Assembly (NCBI RefSeq): GCF_009913235.1
Contig: NZ_CP047897.1
Location: forward strand, 1,364,001 to 1,428,000
Reading direction: 5' to 3'
DNA length: 64,000 bases
Source of the DNA: Nibribacter ruber
GTDB taxonomy: Bacteria > Bacteroidota > Bacteroidia > Cytophagales > Hymenobacteraceae
Positions within the stretch are counted from its first letter, which is position 1; every line of letters begins with the position of its first letter. The notes below the pieces were generated by a model that saw nothing but the letters and a program-made list of their open reading frames with translations, did not search any database and had not been told where the DNA came from. Below, in pieces: positions 4,985-22,536 of the stretch. The position numbers and the translations under genes were made by a program.

Positions 4985-4985
4985 A
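4835..4985. repeat. Direct repeats ATAACTAAAATTTA and inverted repeat ATTACAGTTA
   Basis: ATAACTAAAATTTA occurs exactly at 4835-4848 and 4972-4985, the second overlapping the A of the CD-NTase start codon; a partial copy (ATAACTAAA) lies at about 4957. Between them ATTACAGTTA (4849-4858) is the exact reverse complement of TAACTGTAAT (4897-4906). It may be a regulator site or a low-complexity coincidence. Confidence 0.5.
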
Positions 4986-5992
4986 TGGCATCAACGGTAA
5001 ATAGTGCATTCGACACTTTTATGAAAGATAGTATTCGTTTAAATAGTGACAGAAACATCATAGCAAAAAAAAGTAAAAACAATTTACTTATTGAAATAGA
5101 AAAGTTTCCTAGTGACGGAAAATTCCTTGACTACTATACCGATTACATGAGCATTGATTATGGTTCATATTCACGTAAGACAAAAATAAGACCACTAGAC
5201 GATATTGATTTAATGGTAGTTTTGCATGCCCAGGGTAATTGGAGGGAACCAATTGATGATGGCTATAGGATTCGAGTTAGACCAGAAGCAAGTAAGCAAA
5301 TAGCATTATGTAACTCAGGAACGGACGCATTAAATTCGATAAAAGTTATCAATAAATTTAAAGAATACTTATCCAATATATCTTCTTATAAGAAAGCTGA
5401 AATAAAGAGAAATCAAGAAGCTGTAACTTTAGAACTCAACTCATATGAATGGGTATTTGATATTGTGCCTTGTTTCGAGACGGCTCCCGATTACCTTGGA
5501 AAAACTTTTTTCTTAATCCCTGATGGAAAAGGAAATTGGAAACCTACTGACCCAAGAATTGATAAAAACAGAACTAATAGTATTAACGGAAAACAACAAA
5601 TTTCAGTATTGGACATGATTCGAATAATGAAATTCTGGACAAAGCGAAGGACCGCATCTACAATGGGTTCATATTTTCTAGAATGTTTGATTTTACAGTA
5701 CTATGATTCTAATACCGTCAATAGTAGCACATATATTCACATTGAATTACCAAATTTATTCGCCTACATATATCATCAAATTCATCAGACTTTAAATGAC
5801 CCAAAGGGATTCCAGGGAGATTTAAATAAACTTACATGGGATGAAAGAAATTCTATACAAGAAAGGGCGAAACTAGATTACAATCGCTCAATCCAAGCTC
5901 GCGAATATGAAACAAAAGGCAAGCAAAAAGAATCTATAGAAAAATGGGGCGAAATATTCGGCTCTGAGTTTCCAATCTATTCAGCATACTAA
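4985..5992 (+). CDS. CBASS CD-NTase (SMODS nucleotidyltransferase)
   Basis: A 335-residue cGAS/DncV-like nucleotidyltransferase. Visible: the active-site GS motif (GSYSRKTKIRP, 60-70), the metal-binding DID (Asp73, Asp75) and the third acidic residue in FDIVP (Asp159), then the helical half with TDPR (188-191), a STMGSYFLE helix (225-233) and a WGEIFGSEFP C-terminus (321-330) usual for SMODS proteins. Such enzymes make cyclic di- or trinucleotides on phage infection; the product cannot be read from sequence. The ATG at 4985 follows an A+T-rich leader. Its stop overlaps the next start by one base (TAATG), so the two are translationally coupled. Codon use and A+T content differ sharply from the neighbours, which indicates horizontal acquisition. 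Confidence 0.9.
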   Translation: MASTVNSAFDTFMKDSIRLNSDRNIIAKKSKNNLLIEIEKFPSDGKFLDYYTDYMSIDYGSYSRKTKIRPLDDIDLMVVLHAQGNWREPIDDGYRIRVRPEASKQIALCNSGTDALNSIKVINKFKEYLSNISSYKKAEIKRNQEAVTLELNSYEWVFDIVPCFETAPDYLGKTFFLIPDGKGNWKPTDPRIDKNRTNSINGKQQISVLDMIRIMKFWTKRRTASTMGSYFLECLILQYYDSNTVNSSTYIHIELPNLFAYIYHQIHQTLNDPKGFQGDLNKLTWDERNSIQERAKLDYNRSIQAREYETKGKQKESIEKWGEIFGSEFPIYSAY

Positions 5993-6867
5993 TGAATAAT
6001 ATTAAAATAAATCAGGAACTACCACAAAATCTTAAATTCCTAAAAGCGCAGAGGGTTATTTATGCAAATGCCAAGAAAATATATAGATGGCAACTTACTA
6101 TAAGTATTGTTGTTGTGGTAACACTTAACATCATTAAACTTACCCAAAAAAACTTTACAACTATTGACTTAACACCCTATATAGCCTTAGTCTCTGTATC
6201 AGTGACTTTATTTGACTTACTGTTCCTCTCGGGTTATTTATCAAAATTTAAAACTAACGGAGCTAAAGTCCAAGAATTATTTGACTGCAATGTGTATAAC
6301 ATGGAATGGAATGAAACAAACAGCGGCGATAAACCAGAAAACTGGATTATTGAGGAAGCTGAGAATAAATACGTTCACAACCCCAAGGCTCCATTATCAA
6401 ATTGGTATCACATTGAACTTGATGGTCTAAATCAACAGGAAGCAATACTACGGTGCCAAGAAACAAATTTGGAATATGACCGGAAATTAAGGTATCATTT
6501 TAAAAACGACTGTCTGATTATTTGCTTGTCTATTGTTATAATTTCTTTTGTTGTAGCAACAATTATAAATACCTCCTTACAAGGTTATTTAACCAATTTC
6601 ATTGCACCTACTTTACCTCTTATTGTAATTTTACTAAAATTGGTATTAGACAATAAAAAAGCCGTCAGGTCATTGGAAGAAGTAAGGAAAGCTGTAAGAA
6701 AGCTTCGTAACGCTGGTGGCACTCCTTCAATGAATCAGTTAAGACAAGTACAAGACAAGCTATATTGCAGTAGAAAAGATAGTAGTTTGATTCCTGAAAA
6801 TTATTATCAATACAGGAGAGCAAAATTAGAACAATCCACAAAAATTAATGTTGCAAATCCGTTATAG
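5992..6867 (+). CDS. CBASS effector with S-4TM pore-forming domain
   Basis: A 291-residue protein with four predicted membrane segments (about 33-50, 62-82, 171-192 and 199-219). A soluble loop lies between the second and third helices and carries AKVQELFDCNVYNMEWN (91-107). The C-terminal soluble tail carries RQVQDKLYCSRKDSSLIPENYY (251-272, split here by motif). This layout and both motifs match S-4TM (SMODS-associated 4TM effector) proteins. In CBASS, the nucleotide made by the partner enzyme is thought to trigger such effectors to permeabilise the inner membrane and abort infection. It overlaps the CD-NTase stop by one base. No E2/JAB, TRIP13/HORMA or other ancillary genes follow, so this is a minimal type I arrangement. 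Confidence 0.87.
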   Translation: MNNIKINQELPQNLKFLKAQRVIYANAKKIYRWQLTISIVVVVTLNIIKLTQKNFTTIDLTPYIALVSVSVTLFDLLFLSGYLSKFKTNGAKVQELFDCNVYNMEWNETNSGDKPENWIIEEAENKYVHNPKAPLSNWYHIELDGLNQQEAILRCQETNLEYDRKLRYHFKNDCLIICLSIVIISFVVATIINTSLQGYLTNFIAPTLPLIVILLKLVLDNKKAVRSLEEVRKAVRKLRNAGGTPSMNQLRQVQDKLYCSRKDSSLIPENYYQYRRAKLEQSTKINVANPL

Positions 6868-12515: not shown

Positions 12516-14183
12516 TTATTTCATGCTGCTAACGCCCAGGGCATGCAGCGCGCCATCGGCTAGGCAATCCTTCCAATAGGTAAGAATGGACCGATCGCTT
12601 CTCCTGGCCACCTGAATGGGCACCTGGGCAGGCTCCTTCCCGTTAGACGGGCTGTCTGAATCTATCACCATTTTGTTGGCGGCAAAAGAAAGAAGCTTCT
12701 TCCCAAGGGATTGGCGCTTCTCCCCGTCTTTGGACAGCAAATCCACCTTAAACCCGTCATACTGAATCAGCATGATGCCTTTAGCCGATGTCCTGTTCAA
12801 GGATACTTGAAAGGAGCCTTTCTTTATCTCGCCGCTTTTCACGCTCATGTGCAGGATAGGTTCCAGCATCTGGTTAAGGACGGCCGGGTTGCCTGGGCCA
12901 ATGCGGCCCACTATGGTATGACGGCCTTGCGGATCTAACAAGTTAAGTTTAACCGTAGCGGCCATATAGGCCTTGCCCATGATCAACCCTGTGGCTTTTA
13001 CCACCGCCGGGCGTTTCTGGGTCATGAGGTTTTTGTCATTGGTAAGGTTGGAAATTTGGGCAATGATGTTGCGCACGAACAGCGTTCCCGTTTGGGTGGC
13101 TTCAGGTGCCAGCTCTTCATACCGTACATCTAAGGAGCGAATGGCCACGCGCTTAATGGTGAGACCAAACGGAAGCTTCTGTACCAGATCTTGCGGCAAG
13201 GGCTGCACTCCCTTGATGGGAAAGTTCTTACAGTCCATGTAGGCCCTTAGGCTGGGGTTAAGTACTTGCACGCCGCCCACTTGCACATTGCCATAACGTG
13301 ACAAGGTACCAAACTGCACCTTGCTAAACCTTAGCACCGGCACCGTAATGTTGAACCTGGCAATGGCCCGGCCGGCTTTTCTGGCCAGGGCTTTGGGTCC
13401 CAGCAGCGGTACCAAAGCCGCTTGCTGCACTTTTACCTGCTTGGTTGTGGTGGACAACGCAACTGCTCCGGTTTTGAGGCGGTAATATTGCTGGGGCAGC
13501 ATCAGGTTGGTGGTGGCCGCAGAGGCCTCTATCTTTTGGCAGTAAAAAGCGCGGGACAAGTCTTGAAAAGAAGCGCTGTCTACCTGCAGATGATAAGCAG
13601 TGGCCTTCAACCCGGTAAGTTCTACTTCACTTGCCTTTTGCCTGGGACTGCTTTTATAGCGAAGCCGTCCATTGTTTATGACTATTTTCTGAAGGATAAT
13701 GCCTTTTAGCTGTCCAGTCAGTTTTTCATGCAGGGGTTTTGGTTGGCTGGTGTCTGGTTTCATCTGGGTGAGTACCAGGTTGGGATGGTCTAACTGCAAA
13801 TTACCCAGGCGCAAGGGCTTCTTCTGAAGCAAATCTAGAAAGCTCAGGCCTGTGAGGTTCACGCGCGTGGCCTGCAGGTCTATGGCCATGGCCTTTGCCT
13901 GCGCTGGGTTTGACTTCTGCAACCGTTCCCACACAGCCGGTTGGTGGGCAAGTTCCAGCGAATCTATGGTCACCGTTCCGGCTAGTAGAGAAACATCCAC
14001 TGATCCTGTTTTGAGCAGGTACTCCCCATTTGATTTGCTTCTTACTTCTTCGGCTAGCTTCTTTTCTGCCCAGGGGTCCAGGTACACGCGCACCCATACA
14101 ACCGCTAGCAGCAATAAGGCTGCCACCGCTACCATGGCCCAGAACCATTTCTTGACTATACTTTTTGTGCTTAGCTGCTCCAC
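12516..14183 (-). CDS. AsmA-like envelope protein, one N-terminal membrane anchor
   Basis: About 555 residues from a GTG at 14183; the frame is open to 14339, but that extension covers a terminator hairpin. ATG 14135 would cut through the membrane helix. A positively charged start and one hydrophobic helix (KKWFWAMVAVAALLLLAV) are followed by a long beta-rich periplasmic region (GSVDVSLLAGTVTIDSLELA) typical of AsmA/DUF748-type proteins, which span the periplasm and are implicated in lipid transport to the outer membrane. This assignment rests on general pattern only; it could be a lineage-specific exported protein. Confidence 0.6.
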   Translation of the reverse strand: MEQLSTKSIVKKWFWAMVAVAALLLLAVVWVRVYLDPWAEKKLAEEVRSKSNGEYLLKTGSVDVSLLAGTVTIDSLELAHQPAVWERLQKSNPAQAKAMAIDLQATRVNLTGLSFLDLLQKKPLRLGNLQLDHPNLVLTQMKPDTSQPKPLHEKLTGQLKGIILQKIVINNGRLRYKSSPRQKASEVELTGLKATAYHLQVDSASFQDLSRAFYCQKIEASAATTNLMLPQQYYRLKTGAVALSTTTKQVKVQQAALVPLLGPKALARKAGRAIARFNITVPVLRFSKVQFGTLSRYGNVQVGGVQVLNPSLRAYMDCKNFPIKGVQPLPQDLVQKLPFGLTIKRVAIRSLDVRYEELAPEATQTGTLFVRNIIAQISNLTNDKNLMTQKRPAVVKATGLIMGKAYMAATVKLNLLDPQGRHTIVGRIGPGNPAVLNQMLEPILHMSVKSGEIKKGSFQVSLNRTSAKGIMLIQYDGFKVDLLSKDGEKRQSLGKKLLSFAANKMVIDSDSPSNGKEPAQVPIQVARRSDRSILTYWKDCLADGALHALGVSSMK

Positions 14184-14307
14184 TAGAAAAATGTTGGCTA
14201 CTCTTCTACGCAGGAAAGCAGAAATCTTCCCATTTTGTTGCGCATGCCCGCTCCCCTTTTCAAAGAAGAGGAGTCCTTCTACGGCAAGCCCCAAAGTATC
14301 TAACACA

Positions 14308-14337
14308 AAGAAAGGCCAGCAAATGCTGGCCTTTCTC
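14308..14337 (-). terminator. Intrinsic terminator after the DUF4890 gene
   Basis: AAAGGCCAGC and GCTGGCCTTT are perfectly complementary around AAAT; read on the minus strand the stem is followed by a T-rich tract. It ends the 14360-14833 gene and insulates the next one. Confidence 0.8.
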
Positions 14338-14359
14338 ACTCCGGGGGATATGCAAACTC

Positions 14360-14833
14360 TTAGCTTTTCTCCAATTGTCTTTGGCCTCTGCCTTGGCGCT
14401 GTCCTCTTTTAGAAGCTTGTTTTTCTTTCATCTCCTTGCGGTCTGCCTCAAACTGGGCGTATTTCTTTTTAGAAAGAATTTTTTTAAGCTCATTGTTATA
14501 CTGCTCGTGCTGGGCTTTTCTGGCCTGGCGCTGCGCAGGGTCTTTCTGAGTGGCTTCCAGACGGTTGCTGCGCTGAGCGGCCATCTCATTGGACTGCTTT
14601 AAGAAAAGCGCCTGCAGTTTAGACTGCTGAGACTTGTTGAGGTCATATTTCTTGGCCATCATCTCGGTGCGCTTGGCGGCTCTTTCTTCCGGTGATTTGC
14701 GCACTCTCTCCTGACCATCTTTGCGAACGTGGTGCTCAGAGCGTTCTTTTCTTACTTTCTGCGGACCATCTTGGGCAAACGAGCTTCCGGCAACCAGCAC
14801 TCCCATGGAGAGCATTAGAATCAACTTTTTCAT
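14360..14833 (-). CDS. DUF4890 family exported protein
   Basis: A 157-residue protein with signal peptide (MKKLILMLSMGVLVAGSSFA, 1-20). The mature part is charged and helical, with the DUF4890 core SPEERAAKRTEMMAKKYDLN and a Lys/Gln-rich C-terminus. The pattern is akin to CpxP/Spy-type periplasmic proteins with repeated helices. The start is ATG 14833; the frame extends upstream but would put the signal peptide inside the protein. Terminator follows. Function unknown; a periplasmic chaperone-like role is only an analogy. Confidence 0.78.
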   Translation of the reverse strand: MKKLILMLSMGVLVAGSSFAQDGPQKVRKERSEHHVRKDGQERVRKSPEERAAKRTEMMAKKYDLNKSQQSKLQALFLKQSNEMAAQRSNRLEATQKDPAQRQARKAQHEQYNNELKKILSKKKYAQFEADRKEMKEKQASKRGQRQGRGQRQLEKS

Positions 14834-15045
14834 ATTGGTGTATTTAGGGGTTAGTTTCTTAAATTTAGTTCTTTCCAGGAGCGGTAAGATCTTCAACCGC
14901 CTGGTTGATTCCTTATATTCAAAGCCCGTGCCAAAAACCAACCTACACGGTTAAATATTTGACTATTTTTTTTATCCGAAGGAAAAATATACTGATCAGG
15001 CCTGCAGACCTCTACTTCAATCAACTTACAACCAATACCTTACCC

Positions 15046-15083
15046 CGTTTTTAGGCTATTTCTCAGAAAACAGGCCAAAAACG
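15046..15083. repeat. 38-bp palindrome, copy 6
   Basis: CGTTTTTAGGCTATTTC versus GAAAACAGGCCAAAAACG; imperfect arms. Lies in a divergent spacer, 29 bases before the GNAT start codon, so it is not at a gene end. Confidence 0.85.
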
Positions 15084-15112
15084 ATTGCCACATTGTAGAA
15101 TAGACTAAAAGC

Positions 15113-15535
15113 ATGGAGACACTCCGGATTGCCCTTATTTCACCGGCCCAGACGCTAGACTTGCGCCAACAGGTTTTGTGGCCACACAAGCCTGTATCCT
15201 TTGTGCAACTGCCCGAAGATGACACGGGCACGCATTTCGGGGCCTTTTTGAGCGAGGAACTGGTATCAGTGATGTCGGTTTTTTTGAAGGGAGAAGAAGC
15301 GCAGTTCAGGAAGTTTGCCACCGCGCAGGCTATGCAAGGCCGGGGAATTGGCTCTCAGCTGCTGCAGCACCTCCTAACGCATGCCTCTTCACTGGGCCTG
15401 AAAAGGATTTGGTGCCACGCCCGCCAGGAAAAGGCTGGCTTTTACCGGAAGTTCGGGTTCAAAGAAAAAGGCACTCCCTTTTTTAAAGAAGGAGTGCCTT
15501 ATGTGGTGATGGACTTGTATTTACCTGGCGTTTAA
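15113..15535 (+). CDS. GNAT-family N-acetyltransferase
   Basis: A 140-residue single-domain GNAT enzyme. The acetyl-CoA loop is AMQGRGIGSQLLQHLL (about 74-89), after a beta strand FRKFATAQ, and the C-terminal GFYRKFGFKEKG motif is also typical. It transfers an acetyl group from acetyl-CoA to an amine; substrate not predictable. Monocistronic; ATG at 15113, directly downstream of palindrome copy 6. Confidence 0.88.
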   Translation: METLRIALISPAQTLDLRQQVLWPHKPVSFVQLPEDDTGTHFGAFLSEELVSVMSVFLKGEEAQFRKFATAQAMQGRGIGSQLLQHLLTHASSLGLKRIWCHARQEKAGFYRKFGFKEKGTPFFKEGVPYVVMDLYLPGV

Positions 15536-15562
15536 TTCAGATTGACCAAAGCCTTTATCTGA

Positions 15563-16831
15563 TTACGCCGTTACGCTTGCCGGCTCTAATTGAAACAAGG
15601 CGCTCAGTCCTTCCAGCAACGCCTCAGACTCCCCGCGCTGACAGGCGGCTTTCAGTTCCAAGGCCGGCATTTTCACAATTTTATTCAAGATGTTCTTGGT
15701 GATGGTCTCTACCAGTTCCTTCTCCGTGTCGTTTAGGTTTTTAACGTAGCGGGCCAACTCGCGCTGTCTTATTTCTTCCAGGCGGTTTTTGAACTGCTGC
15801 AAGGCCGGCGACATGGCCATTTCTCTGGTCCAGGTTTTGAACTCGTCCATGCTCTCCTGCACAATCTGCTCTACCTCCGGAATAGAGGCCAGCCTGGTTT
15901 CCAGGGCTTCGGTGGCGCGGTTTTTAATGGTGTCAATGTTGTACACTTCTACGCCAGAAAGTTCTTCCAGGGCGGCGTCAATGCTGCGGGGCATGGACAA
16001 ATCCACGAAGAACTTTTGATTGGACACGCCTTGCTGCGCTACCACCTCTTTGCTGATGAAGAAGCAATCGCCGGGCACCGATGAGATGACCACATCTGCC
16101 AGCGCAATCTCCTGCCAAACGTTCTCCCAGTACACGGCAGTGGCATTGCACTTGGTGGCCAGGTCCTGCGCTTTTCTATGCGTGCGGTTCACAATGATGA
16201 TGTTCTGCAACGATGACTTCTGGAAGTTGTCACACACGTTGGCGCCAATGTCTCCCACCCCAATCATGAGCACGCGTGGGTTCACCAAATGCTGGGTTAG
16301 TTCCTCTACCAGTTCAACCGTGGCATACGACACCGACGCGGCACCGTCTCTAAACGCGGTCTCATTGCACACGCGCTTGTTGGTAAAGAAGATGGTATGC
16401 AACAAGCGGTGCAGGAACGGACCAGCCATGTTGGCGTCTGCCGCCCACTGGTAGGCGTTTTTCACCTGGTTCATGATCTGCATGTCGCCCACCACCTGTG
16501 ACTCCAAACCCAGCCCTACGTTAAACAAGTGCTTAACGGCGGCGTCATGGTCTGTGATGGACAAAAAATACGGCGCTACTTCTTTGGTGGCAATAAAGCC
16601 GCGCTCAATGGCGATGAGCTTGATGAGTTCAGTGGAGAAATCCTGGTCAGCGGTGTAGTAGACTTCGGTACGGTTGCAGGTAGAAAGCACCATGGCCTCT
16701 TGTATGGCCGTGAAGTCTTTGATTTTGTCCAACAGGTTCTTGCCGGCAATCTCATTTAAAGACACAGCTTCTCTTACGGCTATGGGGGCTTGCTTATAAG
16801 ATAACGTCAGGACTTTGAAGGTGCTTTGCAT
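15563..16831 (-). CDS. hemA: Glutamyl-tRNA reductase
   Basis: A 422-residue protein with the HemA hallmark LSTCNRTEVY (49-58), Cys52 being the nucleophile that forms the thioester with glutamate from Glu-tRNA. An NADPH-binding domain with LMIGVGDIGANV (about 195-206) and a C-terminal dimerisation helix follow. It reduces Glu-tRNA(Glu) to glutamate-1-semialdehyde, the first step of C5 tetrapyrrole (heme) synthesis. Starts at ATG 16831 behind a good Bacteroidota promoter; no other heme genes are next to it. Confidence 0.95.
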   Translation of the reverse strand: MQSTFKVLTLSYKQAPIAVREAVSLNEIAGKNLLDKIKDFTAIQEAMVLSTCNRTEVYYTADQDFSTELIKLIAIERGFIATKEVAPYFLSITDHDAAVKHLFNVGLGLESQVVGDMQIMNQVKNAYQWAADANMAGPFLHRLLHTIFFTNKRVCNETAFRDGAASVSYATVELVEELTQHLVNPRVLMIGVGDIGANVCDNFQKSSLQNIIIVNRTHRKAQDLATKCNATAVYWENVWQEIALADVVISSVPGDCFFISKEVVAQQGVSNQKFFVDLSMPRSIDAALEELSGVEVYNIDTIKNRATEALETRLASIPEVEQIVQESMDEFKTWTREMAMSPALQQFKNRLEEIRQRELARYVKNLNDTEKELVETITKNILNKIVKMPALELKAACQRGESEALLEGLSALFQLEPASVTA

Positions 16832-16853
16832 TGCTTTCTCTCAGATTACACTA

Positions 16854-16884
16854 CAAAATTAGTATAGACCGCCACTTGAAAACA
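16854..16884 (-). promoter_or_regulatory. Candidate hemA promoter
   Basis: On the minus strand TAATTTTG (16861-16854) fits the Bacteroidota -7 box TAnnTTTG, with a T-rich TTTT box about 19 bases upstream. The predicted transcript start is 15-20 bases before the ATG. Confidence 0.55.
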
Positions 16885-16941
16885 TGACATTGGTCACTTG
16901 TTTAGTAGGAATGCCTCAGTTTTGAGCGAAAGCTGGTAGGT

Positions 16942-16979
16942 CATTTTTGGCTTGTTTTCTGGGAAACAGGCCAAAAACG
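16942..16979. repeat. 38-bp palindrome, copy 7
   Basis: First dinucleotide CA instead of CG; arms otherwise pair (TTTTTGGCTTG with CAGGCCAAAAA). Lies upstream of the hemA promoter, in a tandem spacer. Confidence 0.85.
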
Positions 16980-17027
16980 GAAAGGTACTTTGGTGATAGC
17001 CGGGTTAGCGTTTGTCAGGTAGTTTGG

Positions 17028-17051
17028 CTTGTTGGTGATAACACCAACAAG
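17028..17051. repeat. Perfect hairpin CTTGTTGGTG/CACCAACAAG
   Basis: Ten-base arms around ATAA. A second, diverged copy is at 3099-3122, so this is a dispersed family. Confidence 0.7.
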
Positions 17052-17072
17052 GGCGGCGACAATTAATCGTTT

Positions 17073-17125
17073 AAAACAAAAAGACACAAAATGGAAGGCA
17101 TTAAAAGTCCTACATCTTGTGTCTT
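17073..17125 (-). terminator. Probable terminator of the signalling operon
   Basis: AAGACACAA (17081-17089) pairs with TTGTGTCTT (17117-17125); on the minus strand the hairpin is followed by TTTTGTTTT. It is 22 bases after the last stop of the operon. Confidence 0.6.
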
Positions 17126-17146
17126 ATGTCTTGAGTCTTTAAAACC

Positions 17147-18208
17147 TTAATTCCTCATGCGGCTTAACTTCTCAAGGTTCAGGAGAATGATTTTACTGCC
17201 GCGGGTGTCAATGAGCTTTTCGTCTTTGAAGTCTGCCAGCGTGCGAATGACGGTTTCTTTGGAGGCGCCCACAATGCTGGCTAAGTCCTCACGGGAGATG
17301 ATGATTTCGGTTTTGCCGTCTACTTCTTGCTGGTACTGTTTCTCTACCAGAATCAAGGCCTCGGCTACGCGTTTGCGCACGGAGTTGTATGCCAGTTTCA
17401 GGAGGCGGTCTTCGCGGTCGGCCAGGTTATCTGACAGGATCTTGATGAACTTGTTGGCCACGTCTCGGTTTTGGTGCAAGAGCGCAAAGAAGTCTTCCTT
17501 GGGTACCACGTACACTTCAGAATCCTCTAGGGCCATGGCAGATTCGCGGTAGGTGCTGTCTTCCAGCAGGTCCAGGTAGCCAATGAAGTCGCCGTCTTTG
17601 TAGAGGTTGGTGATGTATTCGCGGCCTTCCTCGTTAGACTTATAGCCCTTCACCTTGCCTTTGTTCAAAAAGAACAAGGAGTTAGGGTAGCTGCCTTCCA
17701 GGAACAGGTTGTTCTTCTTCTTGAAGAGCGTGACGCGGCGTTTGTCTGAGATGAGGTGGTTGAGTTCTTCAAATCCTCTGGCCTCTTCTACAAACTGCTC
17801 CAGGCCCTGGACGGTCTTCTGAAAGTCCTGGCGAAGAATTTCGCTTTTCTTAAGGCGCATTTCCACGGCGTCCAGCAGTTCTAGGTCGTCAAAGGGTTTG
17901 GTAAGGTAATCATCAGCACCCAGGTTCATGCCCTTTCTAAAATCCTCTTTCTCAGACTTGGCCGTCAGGAAAACAAAGGGAATGCTGGAAGTGTCTGGGT
18001 TCTTGCTGAGCATATGCAATACGCCGTAACCGTCTAGTTGTGGCATCATGATGTCACAAATGATCAGGTCTGGTTTCTCCTGACGGGCCAGTTCTACGCC
18101 TACTTTTCCGTTCTCAGCCTCAAACACCTGGTAATTGGCCAGAGAAAGAATCTCGGCGGTGTTTTCTCTGATTTCCTGATTGTCTTCTATGAGCAGTATC
18201 TTTTTCAT
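17147..18208 (-). CDS. Response regulator: REC fused to CRP/FNR-type DNA-binding module
   Basis: A 353-residue fusion. Residues 1-120 are a receiver with phospho-acceptor Asp52 (IICDIMMPQLDG) and Lys104 (LTKPF). A linker helix is followed by a cyclic-nucleotide-binding-type beta barrel (about 150-270, SLFFLNKGKVKGY ... YKDGDFIGY) and a Crp-type winged helix (REDLASIVGASKETVIRTLADF, about 302-323). It therefore joins two-component phosphorylation to CRP/FNR-type promoter control. No FNR-like cysteine cluster is visible. It is the last gene of a four-gene operon; its start is two bases from the previous stop and lies in a decayed palindrome. Confidence 0.92.
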   Translation of the reverse strand: MKKILLIEDNQEIRENTAEILSLANYQVFEAENGKVGVELARQEKPDLIICDIMMPQLDGYGVLHMLSKNPDTSSIPFVFLTAKSEKEDFRKGMNLGADDYLTKPFDDLELLDAVEMRLKKSEILRQDFQKTVQGLEQFVEEARGFEELNHLISDKRRVTLFKKKNNLFLEGSYPNSLFFLNKGKVKGYKSNEEGREYITNLYKDGDFIGYLDLLEDSTYRESAMALEDSEVYVVPKEDFFALLHQNRDVANKFIKILSDNLADREDRLLKLAYNSVRKRVAEALILVEKQYQQEVDGKTEIIISREDLASIVGASKETVIRTLADFKDEKLIDTRGSKIILLNLEKLSRMRN

Positions 18209-18243
18209 TTTTAGGCAGATTTGGGGAAAATAAGCGAAAAACG
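18206..18243. repeat. Decayed 38-bp palindrome over a gene junction
   Basis: CATTTTTAGGCAG ... CGAAAAACG matches the consensus at about 31 of 38 positions with the same length. It contains the start codon of the REC-CRP gene and the last codons and stop of the receiver-kinase gene, so it may be a domesticated copy or a chance match. Confidence 0.45.
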
Positions 18244-19437
18244 GGAGCCTTTGTTCAGTTCGCTTTCATAGTGCATGGTACCGTCCATCACTTCTACGTA
18301 GCGCTTGACAATGTTCAGACCCAGTCCGGTGCCTTGAATGTTGGTGGCATTCTGCGCCCTGAAGAACGGCGTAAACAAATGCACCTGATCGGCTTTGGGT
18401 ATGCCTATGCCCTTGTCCTCTACGGTAATGGTCACGGCTGACCCTCCAACGCTGGTGGTAAACAGAATGGGCTTGTCCTCTCCAGAGTATTTGCTTCCGT
18501 TGGAAAGCAGGTTGAGCAGAATGTTCTTGAGCAATTGCTTGTCCAGGTGCACCAGTGTTTGGTCACCTGTATGTTGATATTGAATCTGCTGGCCTTCTTT
18601 CAAGAGCCCCTGCATGTCTTCTACGGCCTCTTGCGAGAACTCCACCAGATCAAACGTGCTGGGCAGGTTATGGACTTTGCCTTCCTCAATGCGGCTCATG
18701 GACAGGAAGTCGTTGAGGATGGTGGTGAGGTTTTCTACCGCAGACTTGATGCGTGCCACGTGTTTCTGGCGCTTGTCATCGTCCTCAGTGGATTTGTATT
18801 TACCAATCAGAGACGCAGAAGACAAAACCGTACTCAAGGGCGTCCTGAACTCATGTGAGGCCGTGGTCACAAACCGTGACTTAAGCTCGTTCAATTCCTT
18901 CTCTTTCTGTAACGCCTTCTGGATGTCTGTTTGGGCCTCATGCAAGATACGGTTGGTGTTTTCCAGTTTCTGGATGGCCTCGGCCAGTTCCTGCGTGCGC
19001 GCCTCTACCCTTGCCTCTAATTCAGAGTTGAGCTTTTGGATTTCCTCCAGGTTTTTGGCGTGTTCCAGGCTGTACCTGATGGAACGTTCCAGATCAAAGG
19101 GGTTGAAGGTGCCTTTTACCAGATAATCAGAGGCGCCTGCGCGCATGGCTTTCTCATCAGTCTCGCGGTCTGTCTGCCCGGTGAGCAGAATAAACGGCGC
19201 GGTACAGCCTTCCTCCACCGCTTTGGTGATGAGTTCCAGCCCGTCATGCGCTCCCAGAAAGAAGTCTACCAGATAGACATCATACTTGCCCTGCTTGACC
19301 AGGGCCAGCGCCTCTTGAAAAGACGCCGTCCAGTCCAGGGAGAAATGACGGCCCGGAATGTCTTCTATGATGTCACGGGTGATGATGTAATCATCCTCAT
19401 CATCATCTACCAACAGAATTCTGATTTTGTCTTGCAT
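18211..19437 (-). CDS. Hybrid receiver-histidine kinase
   Basis: A 408-residue protein from ATG 19437. An N-terminal receiver (Asp58 in VYLVDFF; Lys108 in DYLVKGT) is joined by a coiled coil (about 125-188) to a HisKA domain with phospho-acceptor His195 (ASHEFRTPLS). A HATPase domain follows with N-box (NLLSNGSKYS), DKGIGIP and GTGLGLNIVKRYVE. No membrane segment, so cytoplasmic. The receiver-first order suggests that it is switched by an upstream kinase and passes phosphate onward, as a relay step between the PAS kinase and the REC-CRP regulator. Confidence 0.92.
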   Translation of the reverse strand: MQDKIRILLVDDDEDDYIITRDIIEDIPGRHFSLDWTASFQEALALVKQGKYDVYLVDFFLGAHDGLELITKAVEEGCTAPFILLTGQTDRETDEKAMRAGASDYLVKGTFNPFDLERSIRYSLEHAKNLEEIQKLNSELEARVEARTQELAEAIQKLENTNRILHEAQTDIQKALQKEKELNELKSRFVTTASHEFRTPLSTVLSSASLIGKYKSTEDDDKRQKHVARIKSAVENLTTILNDFLSMSRIEEGKVHNLPSTFDLVEFSQEAVEDMQGLLKEGQQIQYQHTGDQTLVHLDKQLLKNILLNLLSNGSKYSGEDKPILFTTSVGGSAVTITVEDKGIGIPKADQVHLFTPFFRAQNATNIQGTGLGLNIVKRYVEVMDGTMHYESELNKGSRFSLIFPKSA

Positions 19438-19451
19438 CCGCAAATGGCAGG

Positions 19452-19901
19452 TTAGGCTTTGGGCAGTTCTACAATCTGGAACCAGTATTTGCTTAAGGTC
19501 TGCATGACGTCTACCAGGCCGGCAAAGGTCACGGGTTTGGTGATGAAGGAACTCACGCCCAGGTCATAGGTGCGCAGCACGTCTTCCTCGGCCTTAGAGG
19601 TAGTCAGCACCACCACCGGGATCACGCGTAAATGGTCATCGGTTTTGATTTCCTTGAGGGCCTCGCGGCCGTCTTTCTTAGGCATGTTAAGGTCCAGCAG
19701 AATGAGGCCCGGAGTGGGATATTCAGATTTATCTGAGAACCTACCGCGGTTGTGCAGATACTCCATCAGTTCTTCGCCGTTCTCCACAAACTGGATGTTG
19801 TTCATGAGGCGGCTCTCCTCCAGGGCCTCTTTGACCAGCATGCGGTCTTCGGCGTCATCTTCGGCAATTAGAATAACTATGGGTCTTTTACTATGCGACA
19901 T
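19452..19901 (-). CDS. Single-domain response regulator (Rcp1-like)
   Basis: A 149-residue stand-alone receiver: acidic pair EDD (14-16), phospho-acceptor Asp70 (LILLDLNMP), Thr in VVLTTS and Lys in FITKPV. The long insert before Asp70 (HNRGRFSDKSEYPTPG) is typical of receivers that partner FixL/phytochrome-type kinases such as Rcp1. It has no output domain, so it is a phosphate shuttle or sink. It lies 11 bases after the kinase stop and 14 before the next gene. Confidence 0.92.
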   Translation of the reverse strand: MSHSKRPIVILIAEDDAEDRMLVKEALEESRLMNNIQFVENGEELMEYLHNRGRFSDKSEYPTPGLILLDLNMPKKDGREALKEIKTDDHLRVIPVVVLTTSKAEEDVLRTYDLGVSSFITKPVTFAGLVDVMQTLSKYWFQIVELPKA

Positions 19902-19912
19902 ACTATGCGGGT

Positions 19913-21466
19913 TTATTCCTGTAAGTTCTTTTTGGCCAGCGTGATAATAAACTGGGTTCCTTTGCCGGGCTGGCTGCGGGCCGTAATGTCACCACCGTGC
20001 TTGATGGCAATCTTGCGGCAAATGGCAAGTCCCACGCCGGAGCCTTCGTATTTCTGGCCCTCCAAACGCTGAAAGATATTAAAAATCCGGTCAAGGTACT
20101 TCTCTTCAAAGCCAATGCCGTTGTCTTCCACTACAATCTTCACCACTTCGTCACCCGGGGTGGCCGTTAAATGCGCCCAGCGCTGAAAGTCAGTTGATGA
20201 GATTCTGATGTGAGGTCTCTCATTGTCCTTCCTAAACTTGATGGCATTGCTGATGAGGTTCTGGAAGAGCTGGCGCATTTGCGTAGGTTCTGCCTCAATG
20301 ATGGGCAAAGGATAGCGCTCAATCTCGGCACCCGTGCGTTCAATGGTGATTTCCAGGTCAGAGAGCACTTCGGTGAGGATGGCATCCAGGCTTACTTTCT
20401 CAAATCCTTTGGACTTGGTGGTCACCCTGGAGAAGGTGAGCAGGTCATTGATGAGGTTCTGCATGCGTACCGCCGCATTGAGCATACGGTCTACATAGTC
20501 CTGGCCTTGCTCACTCAGGTTGCCTTTCTCCTTAGACTTGAGCCTGTCACCGAAGGCCTGAATCTTGCGCAACGGCTCCTGCAGGTCATGCGACGATACA
20601 TACGCAAAGTCCTGTAGCTCCCGATTGCTGCGCTCCAGTTCTGCGGCATAGCGGCGCAGGCGCTCTTCGCTTATCTTCTGCTGCGTAATGTCATGGATAA
20701 AACCGGTGTACACCTTGCGGTCTGCCAGTTGCACCTCACTGATGCTCAAAAACAGCGGAAACACGGTGCCGTCCTTCTTCAAACCAGACACTTCACGGCC
20801 AATGCCAATAATCTTGCGCTTACCGGTTCTTTGGTAATTGTCCATGTAGCCGTCATGGGCGCTATGGTCTGGCTCTGGCATGAGCAGGCTTATGTTATGC
20901 CCCAGAATTTCTGATTCATGGTAGCCAAACAGACGGGCCGCCGCAGGGTTTACCATTTCAATGATGCCGCGCGTGTCTATGGTGATGATGCCGTCTACCG
21001 CCGTCTGAATGATGGATTGGATCTTATGCTCACTTTCCAGCTGGGCAACTTCGGCTTTCTTCTGCCGGGAGATGTCATGGATGATGCCGGTATAAATGAC
21101 GCTATCCTGCAACTTGACCTCACTAATGCTGAGCAGAAACGGAAAAACGGTACCGTCCTTCTTCAGGCCCTTCACCTCTCTGCCAATGCCTATGATCTTG
21201 CGTTGACCCGTGCGCTGGTAGTTCTCTATGTACTGATCATGGGCGCTGTGGTCTGGCTCAGGCATGAGCATGCTGATGTTGTTGCCAATCATCTCCTCTG
21301 GCTGGTACCCGAAGATGGCAGACACCGCGGGGTTCACAGATTCAATGCGACCACGGGTGTCTATGGTGATGATGCCGTCAATGGCGGCGTCTATGATGGC
21401 CTGCAACCGGGCCTGGTCATCAGGGTTATGAGAGGGAGTCAAATGCGTTTCTTCCAAAGCGATCAA
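19913..21466 (-). CDS. FixL-like histidine kinase with two PAS domains
   Basis: A 517-residue cytoplasmic kinase. Two nearly identical PAS domains (about 18-137 and 146-265) each hold MPEPDHSAHD and IIGIGREV, the segments that in rhizobial FixL carry the heme-ligand His (here His76 and His204) and the regulatory Arg (Arg96 and Arg224). A HisKA helix with His293 (SSHDLQEPLRK) and a HATPase (DNGIGFEEKYLDRIF, GSGVGLAICRKIA) follow. Heme binding is a hypothesis. The only in-frame starts before PAS1 are TTG codons (21466 or 21457), since a TAG lies just upstream. First gene of the operon. Confidence 0.92.
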   Translation of the reverse strand: MIALEETHLTPSHNPDDQARLQAIIDAAIDGIITIDTRGRIESVNPAVSAIFGYQPEEMIGNNISMLMPEPDHSAHDQYIENYQRTGQRKIIGIGREVKGLKKDGTVFPFLLSISEVKLQDSVIYTGIIHDISRQKKAEVAQLESEHKIQSIIQTAVDGIITIDTRGIIEMVNPAAARLFGYHESEILGHNISLLMPEPDHSAHDGYMDNYQRTGKRKIIGIGREVSGLKKDGTVFPLFLSISEVQLADRKVYTGFIHDITQQKISEERLRRYAAELERSNRELQDFAYVSSHDLQEPLRKIQAFGDRLKSKEKGNLSEQGQDYVDRMLNAAVRMQNLINDLLTFSRVTTKSKGFEKVSLDAILTEVLSDLEITIERTGAEIERYPLPIIEAEPTQMRQLFQNLISNAIKFRKDNERPHIRISSTDFQRWAHLTATPGDEVVKIVVEDNGIGFEEKYLDRIFNIFQRLEGQKYEGSGVGLAICRKIAIKHGGDITARSQPGKGTQFIITLAKKNLQE

Positions 21467-22312: not shown

Positions 22313-22323
22313 CCAACTAACCG

Positions 22324-22396
22324 TGATCCCGCTGGGATTCGAACCCAGGACCCATACATTAAAAGTGTATTGCTCTACCAGCTGAGCTACAGAATC
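22324..22396 (-). tRNA. tRNA-Lys (anticodon TTT), copy 1
   Basis: 73 bases. Acceptor GATTCTG pairs with CGGGATC (G-U pairs allowed), D-arm AGCTCAGCTGGTAGAGC, anticodon stem ATACA with loop CTTTTAA, T-loop GGTTCGAATCC, discriminator A; CCA is not encoded. Reads AAA/AAG. Identical in sequence to copy 2. Confidence 0.96.
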
Positions 22397-22448: not shown

Positions 22449-22463
22449 CTTTGTGTAATCATG

Positions 22464-22536
22464 TGATCCCGCTGGGATTCGAACCCAGGACCCATACATT
22501 AAAAGTGTATTGCTCTACCAGCTGAGCTACAGAATC
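22464..22536 (-). tRNA. tRNA-Lys (anticodon TTT), copy 2
   Basis: 73 bases, identical to copy 1 (22324-22396). First of the pair in transcription order. The three flanking bases before the discriminator are also shared, consistent with tandem duplication. Confidence 0.96.

Follow-up and report, generated by a model that had tools for sequence, protein, structure and literature searches.

A FixL-like kinase with two candidate heme PAS domains heads a conserved gene cassette in Nibribacter ruber and other Hymenobacteraceae

The kinase and its gene neighbourhood

We analysed a stretch of 64,000 nucleotides from Nibribacter ruber (contig NZ_CP047897.1, positions 1,364,001 to 1,428,000), here called the window. 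Its reverse strand carries a gene for a sensor histidine kinase with two PAS domains, which heads a cassette in the order kinase > REC > REC-kinase > REC-CRP. Behind the cassette lies a second gene for glutamyl-tRNA reductase, hemA. The features are given in window coordinates.

19913-21466 (-): twin-PAS sensor histidine kinase, 517 aa, TTG start (ORF and Pfam)
21071-21409 (-): PAS-A, residues 20-132; His76 codon at 21239-21241, Arg96 codon at 21179-21181
20687-21025 (-): PAS-B, residues ~148-260, its end placed by alignment with PAS-A; His204 codon at 20855-20857, Arg224 codon at 20795-20797
20420-20617 (-): HisKA, residues 284-349 (Pfam), with the presumed phospho-acceptor His293 in SSHDLQEPLR
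19931-20287 (-): HATPase_c, residues 394-512 (Pfam)
19452-19901 (-): stand-alone REC response regulator, 149 aa (Pfam)
18211-19443 (-): REC-HisKA-HATPase kinase (REC-kinase), 410 aa, homologous to the PAS-kinase adjoining REC-CRP in loci L270-L277 of relatives
17147-18208 (-): REC-cNMP_binding-HTH_Crp regulator (REC-CRP), 353 aa (Pfam)
16881-16897 (-): CRP-type box GTGACCAATGTCAT, then GTT, 50-66 bp upstream of the start codon of hemA; exact box at 16884-16897
15563-16831 (-): second (cassette-linked) glutamyl-tRNA reductase, hemA (family search)

Two tRNA-Lys(ttt) genes adjoin the cassette at 22323-22396(-) and 22463-22536(-). Elsewhere in the window, a low-GC stretch at 4985-6867(+) holds a two-gene CBASS-like defence pair composed of an oligonucleotide cyclase (SMODS) and a 4TM effector (S_4TM).

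Pfam searches of the kinase (E <= 0.001) matched HisKA, HATPase_c and a set of sensor families of PAS type or related to it; a chemoreceptor signalling domain was not among the matches. No stretch of the 517 aa reached the hydrophobicity of a membrane helix, the highest 19-residue Kyte-Doolittle mean being 1.03. The kinase core had its closest solved match in the bacteriophytochrome kinase RpBphP2 (8f71, 1e-53), while the PAS part was closest to FixL structures (8js5 and others). Against the curated FixL model NF041777 the protein scored 323 bits, below the cut-off of 850.

Residues and predicted structure of the two PAS domains

The motif MPEPDHSAHD occurs twice in the kinase, and its last histidine (His76 and His204) aligned in both copies with His200 of BjFixL; likewise, the arginines of the two IIGIGR motifs (Arg96 and Arg224) aligned with BjFixL Arg220. 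These assignments agree with those of an earlier note on this DNA. In FixL, His200 is the proximal heme ligand, Arg220 is the distal arginine, and the other pocket residues considered here are distal hydrophobic ones; Arg220, Ile215 and Ile238 adjoin the bound O2 (PMC10765370). The kinase gene was present in 70 of 204 Hymenobacteraceae genomes (E <= 1e-120), and for the conservation analysis we took the protein from all 69 gene-bearing genomes besides that of the window. Two FixL-type PAS domains were kept in 68 of these 69 (69/70 when the window is included), so we rejected the idea that the twin arrangement is a peculiarity of one genome. The lone exception, genome G172, carries a kinase with one PAS domain and an intact relay, indicating that two PAS domains are not essential. 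In a named collection, the best 80 of 511 relatives contained 27 twin proteins, with species partly repeated, from Rufibacter, Pontibacter, Adhaeribacter and Botryobacter, together with one labelled Cesiribacteraceae and one uncultured bacterium.

Among the 68 twin proteins, the equivalents of BjFixL His200, Ile215, Ile216, Arg220 and Leu236 were invariant in both PAS domains, and that of Ile238 was kept in 67 of 68 PAS-A and 65 of 68 PAS-B domains, being Val otherwise. Identity to BjFixL in at least 65 of the 68 proteins was seen at 43 of 112 columns in PAS-A and 41 of 112 in PAS-B. All six pocket columns tested (His200, Ile215, Ile216, Arg220, Leu236 and Ile238) fell within these conserved sets (hypergeometric P of 0.0025 for PAS-A and 0.0019 for PAS-B, values not corrected for kinship). 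Other FixL positions were less well kept. FixL Arg206 acts as a proximal switch, and changing it weakens inhibition by O2 (PMC10765370). This position is Asn in both PAS domains of the window; across the twin proteins it is Asn in 57, Arg in 10 and His in 1 of the PAS-A domains, and His in 37, Asn in 21, Arg in 9 and Asp in 1 of the PAS-B domains. FixL His214 was retained in 0 of 68 PAS-A domains, where the position holds Gln, Lys or Arg, and in 7 of 68 PAS-B domains. The Ile218 position, which is Ile in the window, is Lys in 49 of 68 PAS-A domains.

When each domain was compared separately with solved structures, FixL heme domains ranked first for both PAS-A (6e-26, 94 bits) and PAS-B (1e-33, 119 bits); with the retention of both domains in 68 of 69 other genomes, this puts the resemblance far outside chance. 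The best 13 solved sequences for PAS-A were all FixL or DosP, both heme PAS proteins, the last of them at 61 bits, and the 14th, at 38 bits, was 10jx, itself described as a heme-binding PAS domain; the same 13 structures led the list for PAS-B. The full-length kinase was modelled from 44 sequences (mean pLDDT 77.9, pTM 0.45), and the model resembled the tandem PAS of BjFixL (8js5/8js6), with TM by target of 0.70-0.73. On BjFixLH, the predicted PAS-B of this heme-free model superposed over 106 residues at an rmsd of 0.9 A (Z 21.1), its predicted PAS-A over 117 residues at 1.0 A (Z 20.5). A separate model of PAS-A (37 sequences, pLDDT 87.3) matched FixL entries in the 13 top places (Z 19.5-20.6, rmsd 0.9-1.7 A), followed by DosP (Z 16.9) and FG214 (Z 16.7), both heme PAS proteins, and the structural-genomics PAS 3lyx scored Z 16.4. 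The PAS models contain no heme, and a common fold shows no function.

The earlier note had drawn its two candidate heme PAS domains from the histidine and the arginine. That argument is weak by itself, because eight PAS-kinases of relatives (L270-L277) have the His in 8/8 and the Arg in 6/8 and lack the rest of the FixL pocket; we therefore rejected these two residues alone as enough to prove heme. Taken with the conservation of the whole pocket and the predicted structures, the residues nevertheless support heme-competent pockets well, and both PAS domains probably carry heme.

The PAS-A of BjFixL itself is a heme-free structural or dimerisation copy. We thus considered whether here, too, only PAS-B would carry heme and sense O2, with PAS-A as such a copy. 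PAS-B adjoins the kinase and outscores PAS-A against FixL by the bit scores above, and PAS-A has Lys at 218 in 49 of 68 proteins and Gln, Lys or Arg at 214. Moreover, G172 retains a single PAS, and in two relatives (L035 and L039) the second PAS is of FixL type and the first lacks the FixL pocket. However, over the 68 genomes PAS-A is no more variable than PAS-B at the axial His, the distal Arg and the distal hydrophobic positions, and the pocketless first PAS of L035 and L039 shows that a domain can have the fold and still lack the pocket. A heme-free PAS-A therefore seems unlikely to us.

The two domains had also been described as near duplicates. This was true for the protein, in which 82 of 115 aligned residues were identical, but not for the DNA, where 70% of bases agreed and 46 of the 82 shared residues used the identical codon. 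A tree built from 69 PAS domains separated the two kinds: one group took in 27 of the 28 A copies (support 92/72), another 27 of the 28 B copies (99/88). The Rhodocytophaga PAS branched next to the B group, the uncultured L033 had its two copies outside, and many forks were unresolved. This separation indicates that the duplication is old and that the copies have been held apart since. Given these groups and the differing codons, we rejected a recent origin of one PAS domain from the other, whether by duplication or by gene conversion; support for the A group was only 92/72.

The cassette, its CRP-type box and candidate targets

Taking a single locus from each genome and requiring 3300 or more bases downstream of the kinase, we found the same cassette order in 38 of 38 twin loci, with hemA in reach in 32. 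Among the immediate neighbours of the kinase no FixJ-type regulator (REC plus HTH) was found; REC, REC-kinase and REC-CRP stand there instead. REC-CRP has the cNMP_binding and HTH_Crp domains of FixK/FNR-type regulators, and its single Cys, at position 51, lies in the REC domain. It is therefore not an FNR-type Fe-S sensor and is FixK-like in lacking the Fe-S cysteine set. We infer that the genome groups g1, g2, g4 and g5 correspond to Rufibacter, Adhaeribacter, Hymenobacter and Pontibacter, respectively. At eight hand-picked g4/g6 loci, a PAS-kinase homologous to REC-kinase directly precedes REC-CRP, which suggests that REC-kinase and REC-CRP form a direct pair into which the twin-PAS kinase and REC would feed. 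The same four genes occur in other Bacteroidota with sensors lacking the FixL pocket (L046-L048, L055 and L058). Since related pocketless kinases precede the same kind of regulator, the relay as such is no proof of O2 sensing.

Several variants of the cassette were recorded. Loci L270-L277 hold a two-gene version made of a PAS-kinase and REC-CRP, in which the PAS has the His and not the FixL pocket. Locus L264 (G172:C1:1010000-1029000) carries at 13289-17482(-) the natural single-PAS kinase with REC, REC-kinase and REC-CRP, and no extra hemA. At L280 (7697-9948(-)), in genome G003, which has neither the twin-PAS kinase nor ccoN, the partner kinase of REC-CRP is fused to a single FixL-type PAS. 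Second REC-CRP paralogues, 47-52% identical, were found in G181 (C1:923999-925045), G193 (C63:73988-75049), G001 (C52) and G006 (C31); at the two paralogue loci read (L278 and L279), no other cassette genes were found beside the second REC-CRP.

The genome of the window encodes two hemA genes at E <= 1e-60, the other copy (C1:3087439-3088692) being 51% identical. The window-type hemA (E <= 1e-165) was present in 68 of 204 genomes, all kinase-bearing; thus 68 of 70 genomes with the kinase have it and 0 of 134 without, counts not corrected for kinship. Two genomes (G172 and G190) have the kinase and no second hemA, and none shows the reverse. The cbb3 oxidase gene ccoN was found in 68 of 70 kinase-bearing genomes, and both it and the second hemA are absent from the six kinase-free genomes of g1, g2, g3 and g5 (G003, G004, G137, G145, G150 and G166).

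A conserved box, RTGACNNNNGTCAY, precedes the second hemA. With one locus per genome, it occurred within one mismatch in 26 of 32 distinct regions before hemA, against 2.3% of shuffles, and in 33 of 68 regions before the kinase, against 2.9% of shuffles. Upstream of the window's own kinase gene no good box was found. The exact palindrome ATGAC-N4-GTCAT lay before the kinase in 13 of 95 loci and before hemA in 5 of 52 (some species counted twice), against at most 3 in shuffles; it ranked first before the kinase, and other palindromes ranked above it before hemA. We then trained a matrix on hemA sites only (33 distinct ones) and applied it to regions picked by hand, with the 95% shuffle level as threshold. 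It detected a site upstream of ccoN in 20 of 20 sampled genomes with the kinase and in 17 of 20 g4/g6 genomes without it, and in 1 of 20 control regions upstream of the housekeeping hemA. In the genome of the window, the ccoN box was located to C1:4210994-4211013, some 330 bp upstream of ccoNO, and the ORFs that come next resemble, by eye, ccoP, ccoG and more cbb3 genes.

A strict pattern gave 35 matches in eleven genomes, 33 of them in the nine with the kinase and one each in the two without, both of the latter inside ORFs. Of the 33, 28 had their loci retained, and these sites were placed as follows: 17 before the genes itemised next, 4 inside ORFs, 2 in an apparent repeat and 5 before genes that could not be named. 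The 17 comprise ccoG (4), ccoN (3), hemA (2), class II ribonucleotide reductase (2), the kinase (2, from a single site counted on either strand), and NO reductase, flavohemoglobin, acetate-CoA ligase and a universal stress protein (1 each). Of these genes, seven besides hemA were identified by family search; the rest were named by eye, from N-terminal sequence. Counts of this pattern over whole genomes, covering g1, g2/g3 and g5, were 5.96 against 2.77 for the control in g5 (48 genomes), with no enrichment in g1 (2.79 against 2.57, 14 genomes) or g2/g3 (1.0 against 1.6, 8 genomes), and 0.17 against 2.17 in six kinase-free genomes. In G183, 6 of 8 strict sites were identical and look like a repeat. 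In the window's own genome the box with one mismatch occurred 445 times, against 324 for the control, and exact ATGAC-N4-GTCAT at 4 places, against 1 for the control; none of the 4 is at hemA, whose box begins with G.

The boxes might instead be bound by another CRP-family protein, the cassette's REC-CRP having its target elsewhere, and two further HTH_Crp_2 proteins in the window's genome do pass the cut-off. We consider this quite improbable, however: REC-CRP (E <= 1e-70) accompanies ccoN in 141 of 141 ccoN-bearing genomes and occurs in 26 of the 63 without ccoN (204 genomes, kinship not corrected), the two genes share the fetched stretch at five of the eight hand-picked loci (L270-L273 and L277), and the box stands both at ccoN and at the hemA that adjoins REC-CRP.

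The link to hemA raises another question, namely whether the sensor reads heme supply or the redox state of heme, and not O2, and controls heme synthesis through hemA. That hemA follows the cassette in 32 of 38 loci, mostly behind a box, and tracks the kinase would fit such a role. The box nevertheless also precedes ccoN and, in single genomes, ccoG and the genes for NO reductase, flavohemoglobin and class II ribonucleotide reductase, which form a low-oxygen set, and the distal residues next to the bound O2 in FixL are kept. We regard a heme-supply sensor as very improbable.

A proposed low-oxygen switch and its relation to known systems

Altogether, we put at roughly 65% the probability that the kinase is a FixL-like oxygen sensor with two tandem heme-PAS domains which acts through the relay on REC-CRP and thereby on the cbb3 oxidase and the second hemA. 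As oxygen falls, ferrous heme in both PAS domains would lose O2, and the kinase would phosphorylate the REC protein. The phosphate would then pass via REC-kinase to REC-CRP, an order suggested by the gene order and by the relatives with a PAS-kinase directly before REC-CRP. REC-CRP would bind the RTGACNNNNGTCAY boxes and activate the cbb3 oxidase genes (ccoNO and neighbours) and the second hemA, which would supply heme; in single relatives, genes for NO reductase, flavohemoglobin and class II ribonucleotide reductase stand behind a box as well. We give even odds to a fuller form of this proposal, in which both PAS domains bind heme, making four hemes per dimer, and two O2 sites that differ in affinity or are coupled would produce a graded or switch-like response, while REC-CRP, by driving the oxidase and a private hemA, would raise the sensor's own cofactor supply at low oxygen.

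Several observations count against a FixL-like low-oxygen switch. The pocket lacks features of FixL, as Arg206 is mostly replaced by Asn or His, His214 is hardly kept and Lys is frequent at 218 of PAS-A; G172 keeps the relay with a single PAS; and pocketless kinases stand before the same kind of regulator. No good box precedes the window's kinase, and the strict-box excess is confined to g5. The two kinase-bearing genomes without ccoN (G007 and G162, both incomplete assemblies) and the many g4/g6 genomes that have ccoN and the box without the twin-PAS kinase also fit the proposal poorly. A low-oxygen switch is still the best account, because of its parallels with Alphaproteobacteria, whose FixK/FnrN regulon includes cco, hemA and hemN (PMC4999443) and, in R. 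palustris, heme and cbb3 genes (PMC13327599).

The cassette resembles the FixL-FixJ-FixK system of Bradyrhizobium and Sinorhizobium in its tandem-PAS kinase with FixL-type heme PAS sequence and predicted fold, in its CRP-family end regulator, and in having cbb3 and hemA among the likely targets. It differs in that both PAS domains keep the pocket, Arg206 is mostly lost, no FixJ-type regulator adjoins, the kinase core is nearest to a bacteriophytochrome kinase, and REC is fused to the CRP domain. The box differs as well: ours is TGAC-N4-GTCA, whereas theirs is of the TTGA type, given as TTGANCNNGATCAA for FixK/FNR (PMC4999443). Both PAS domains have the axial His, the distal Arg and the distal hydrophobic residues of FixL, but by these tests the protein does not count as a FixL ortholog: it lacks Arg206 and a FixJ partner, and its NF041777 score is below the cut-off. 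The best account is that the sensor works like FixL and the end regulator like FixK, neither being a member of the family by these tests; most likely, this is a FixL-FixK-like low-oxygen switch built from different parts. Another FixL-type cascade with a CRP-family end regulator is hFixL-FxkR-FixKf of Rhizobiales, which, unlike the present one, uses a hybrid kinase with separate FxkR and FixKf; the consulted passages of PMC4999443 mention no REC-CRP fusion. DosP of E. coli, the second-best solved relative after FixL, is also a heme PAS protein, but has Met95 as axial heme ligand and a phosphodiesterase output (PMC4263535).

A twin-heme oxygen sensor had been expected to be unusual. Among the matches listed from the open-access literature there was no FixL-type kinase with two heme PAS domains, and no described oxygen regulator for Hymenobacteraceae. 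Tandem PAS domains with more than one heme have precedents, however, since Aer2 chemoreceptors with dual PAS-heme domains in Vibrio cholerae and tri-PAS-heme domains in V. vulnificus are described, and among the 70 Hymenobacteraceae genomes that hold the gene the twin PAS is the rule. The Aer2 PAS-heme type differs from the FixL type, and Aer2 is a chemoreceptor whereas the present protein is a histidine kinase. What is new here is the conserved cassette with the kinase at its head, together with the second hemA behind it, the CRP-type box before that hemA, the recurrence of the box upstream of ccoN and the co-occurrence of this hemA with the kinase.

If both PAS domains bind heme, the protein would be a natural two-site FixL-type kinase suited to studying how a kinase is governed jointly by two heme sensors on the same chain, with natural single-PAS variants (that of G172 and the single-PAS relatives) as controls. 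The proposed switch would also offer a reason for the second hemA in these genomes, and it puts forward a candidate low-oxygen box and target set for Hymenobacteraceae.
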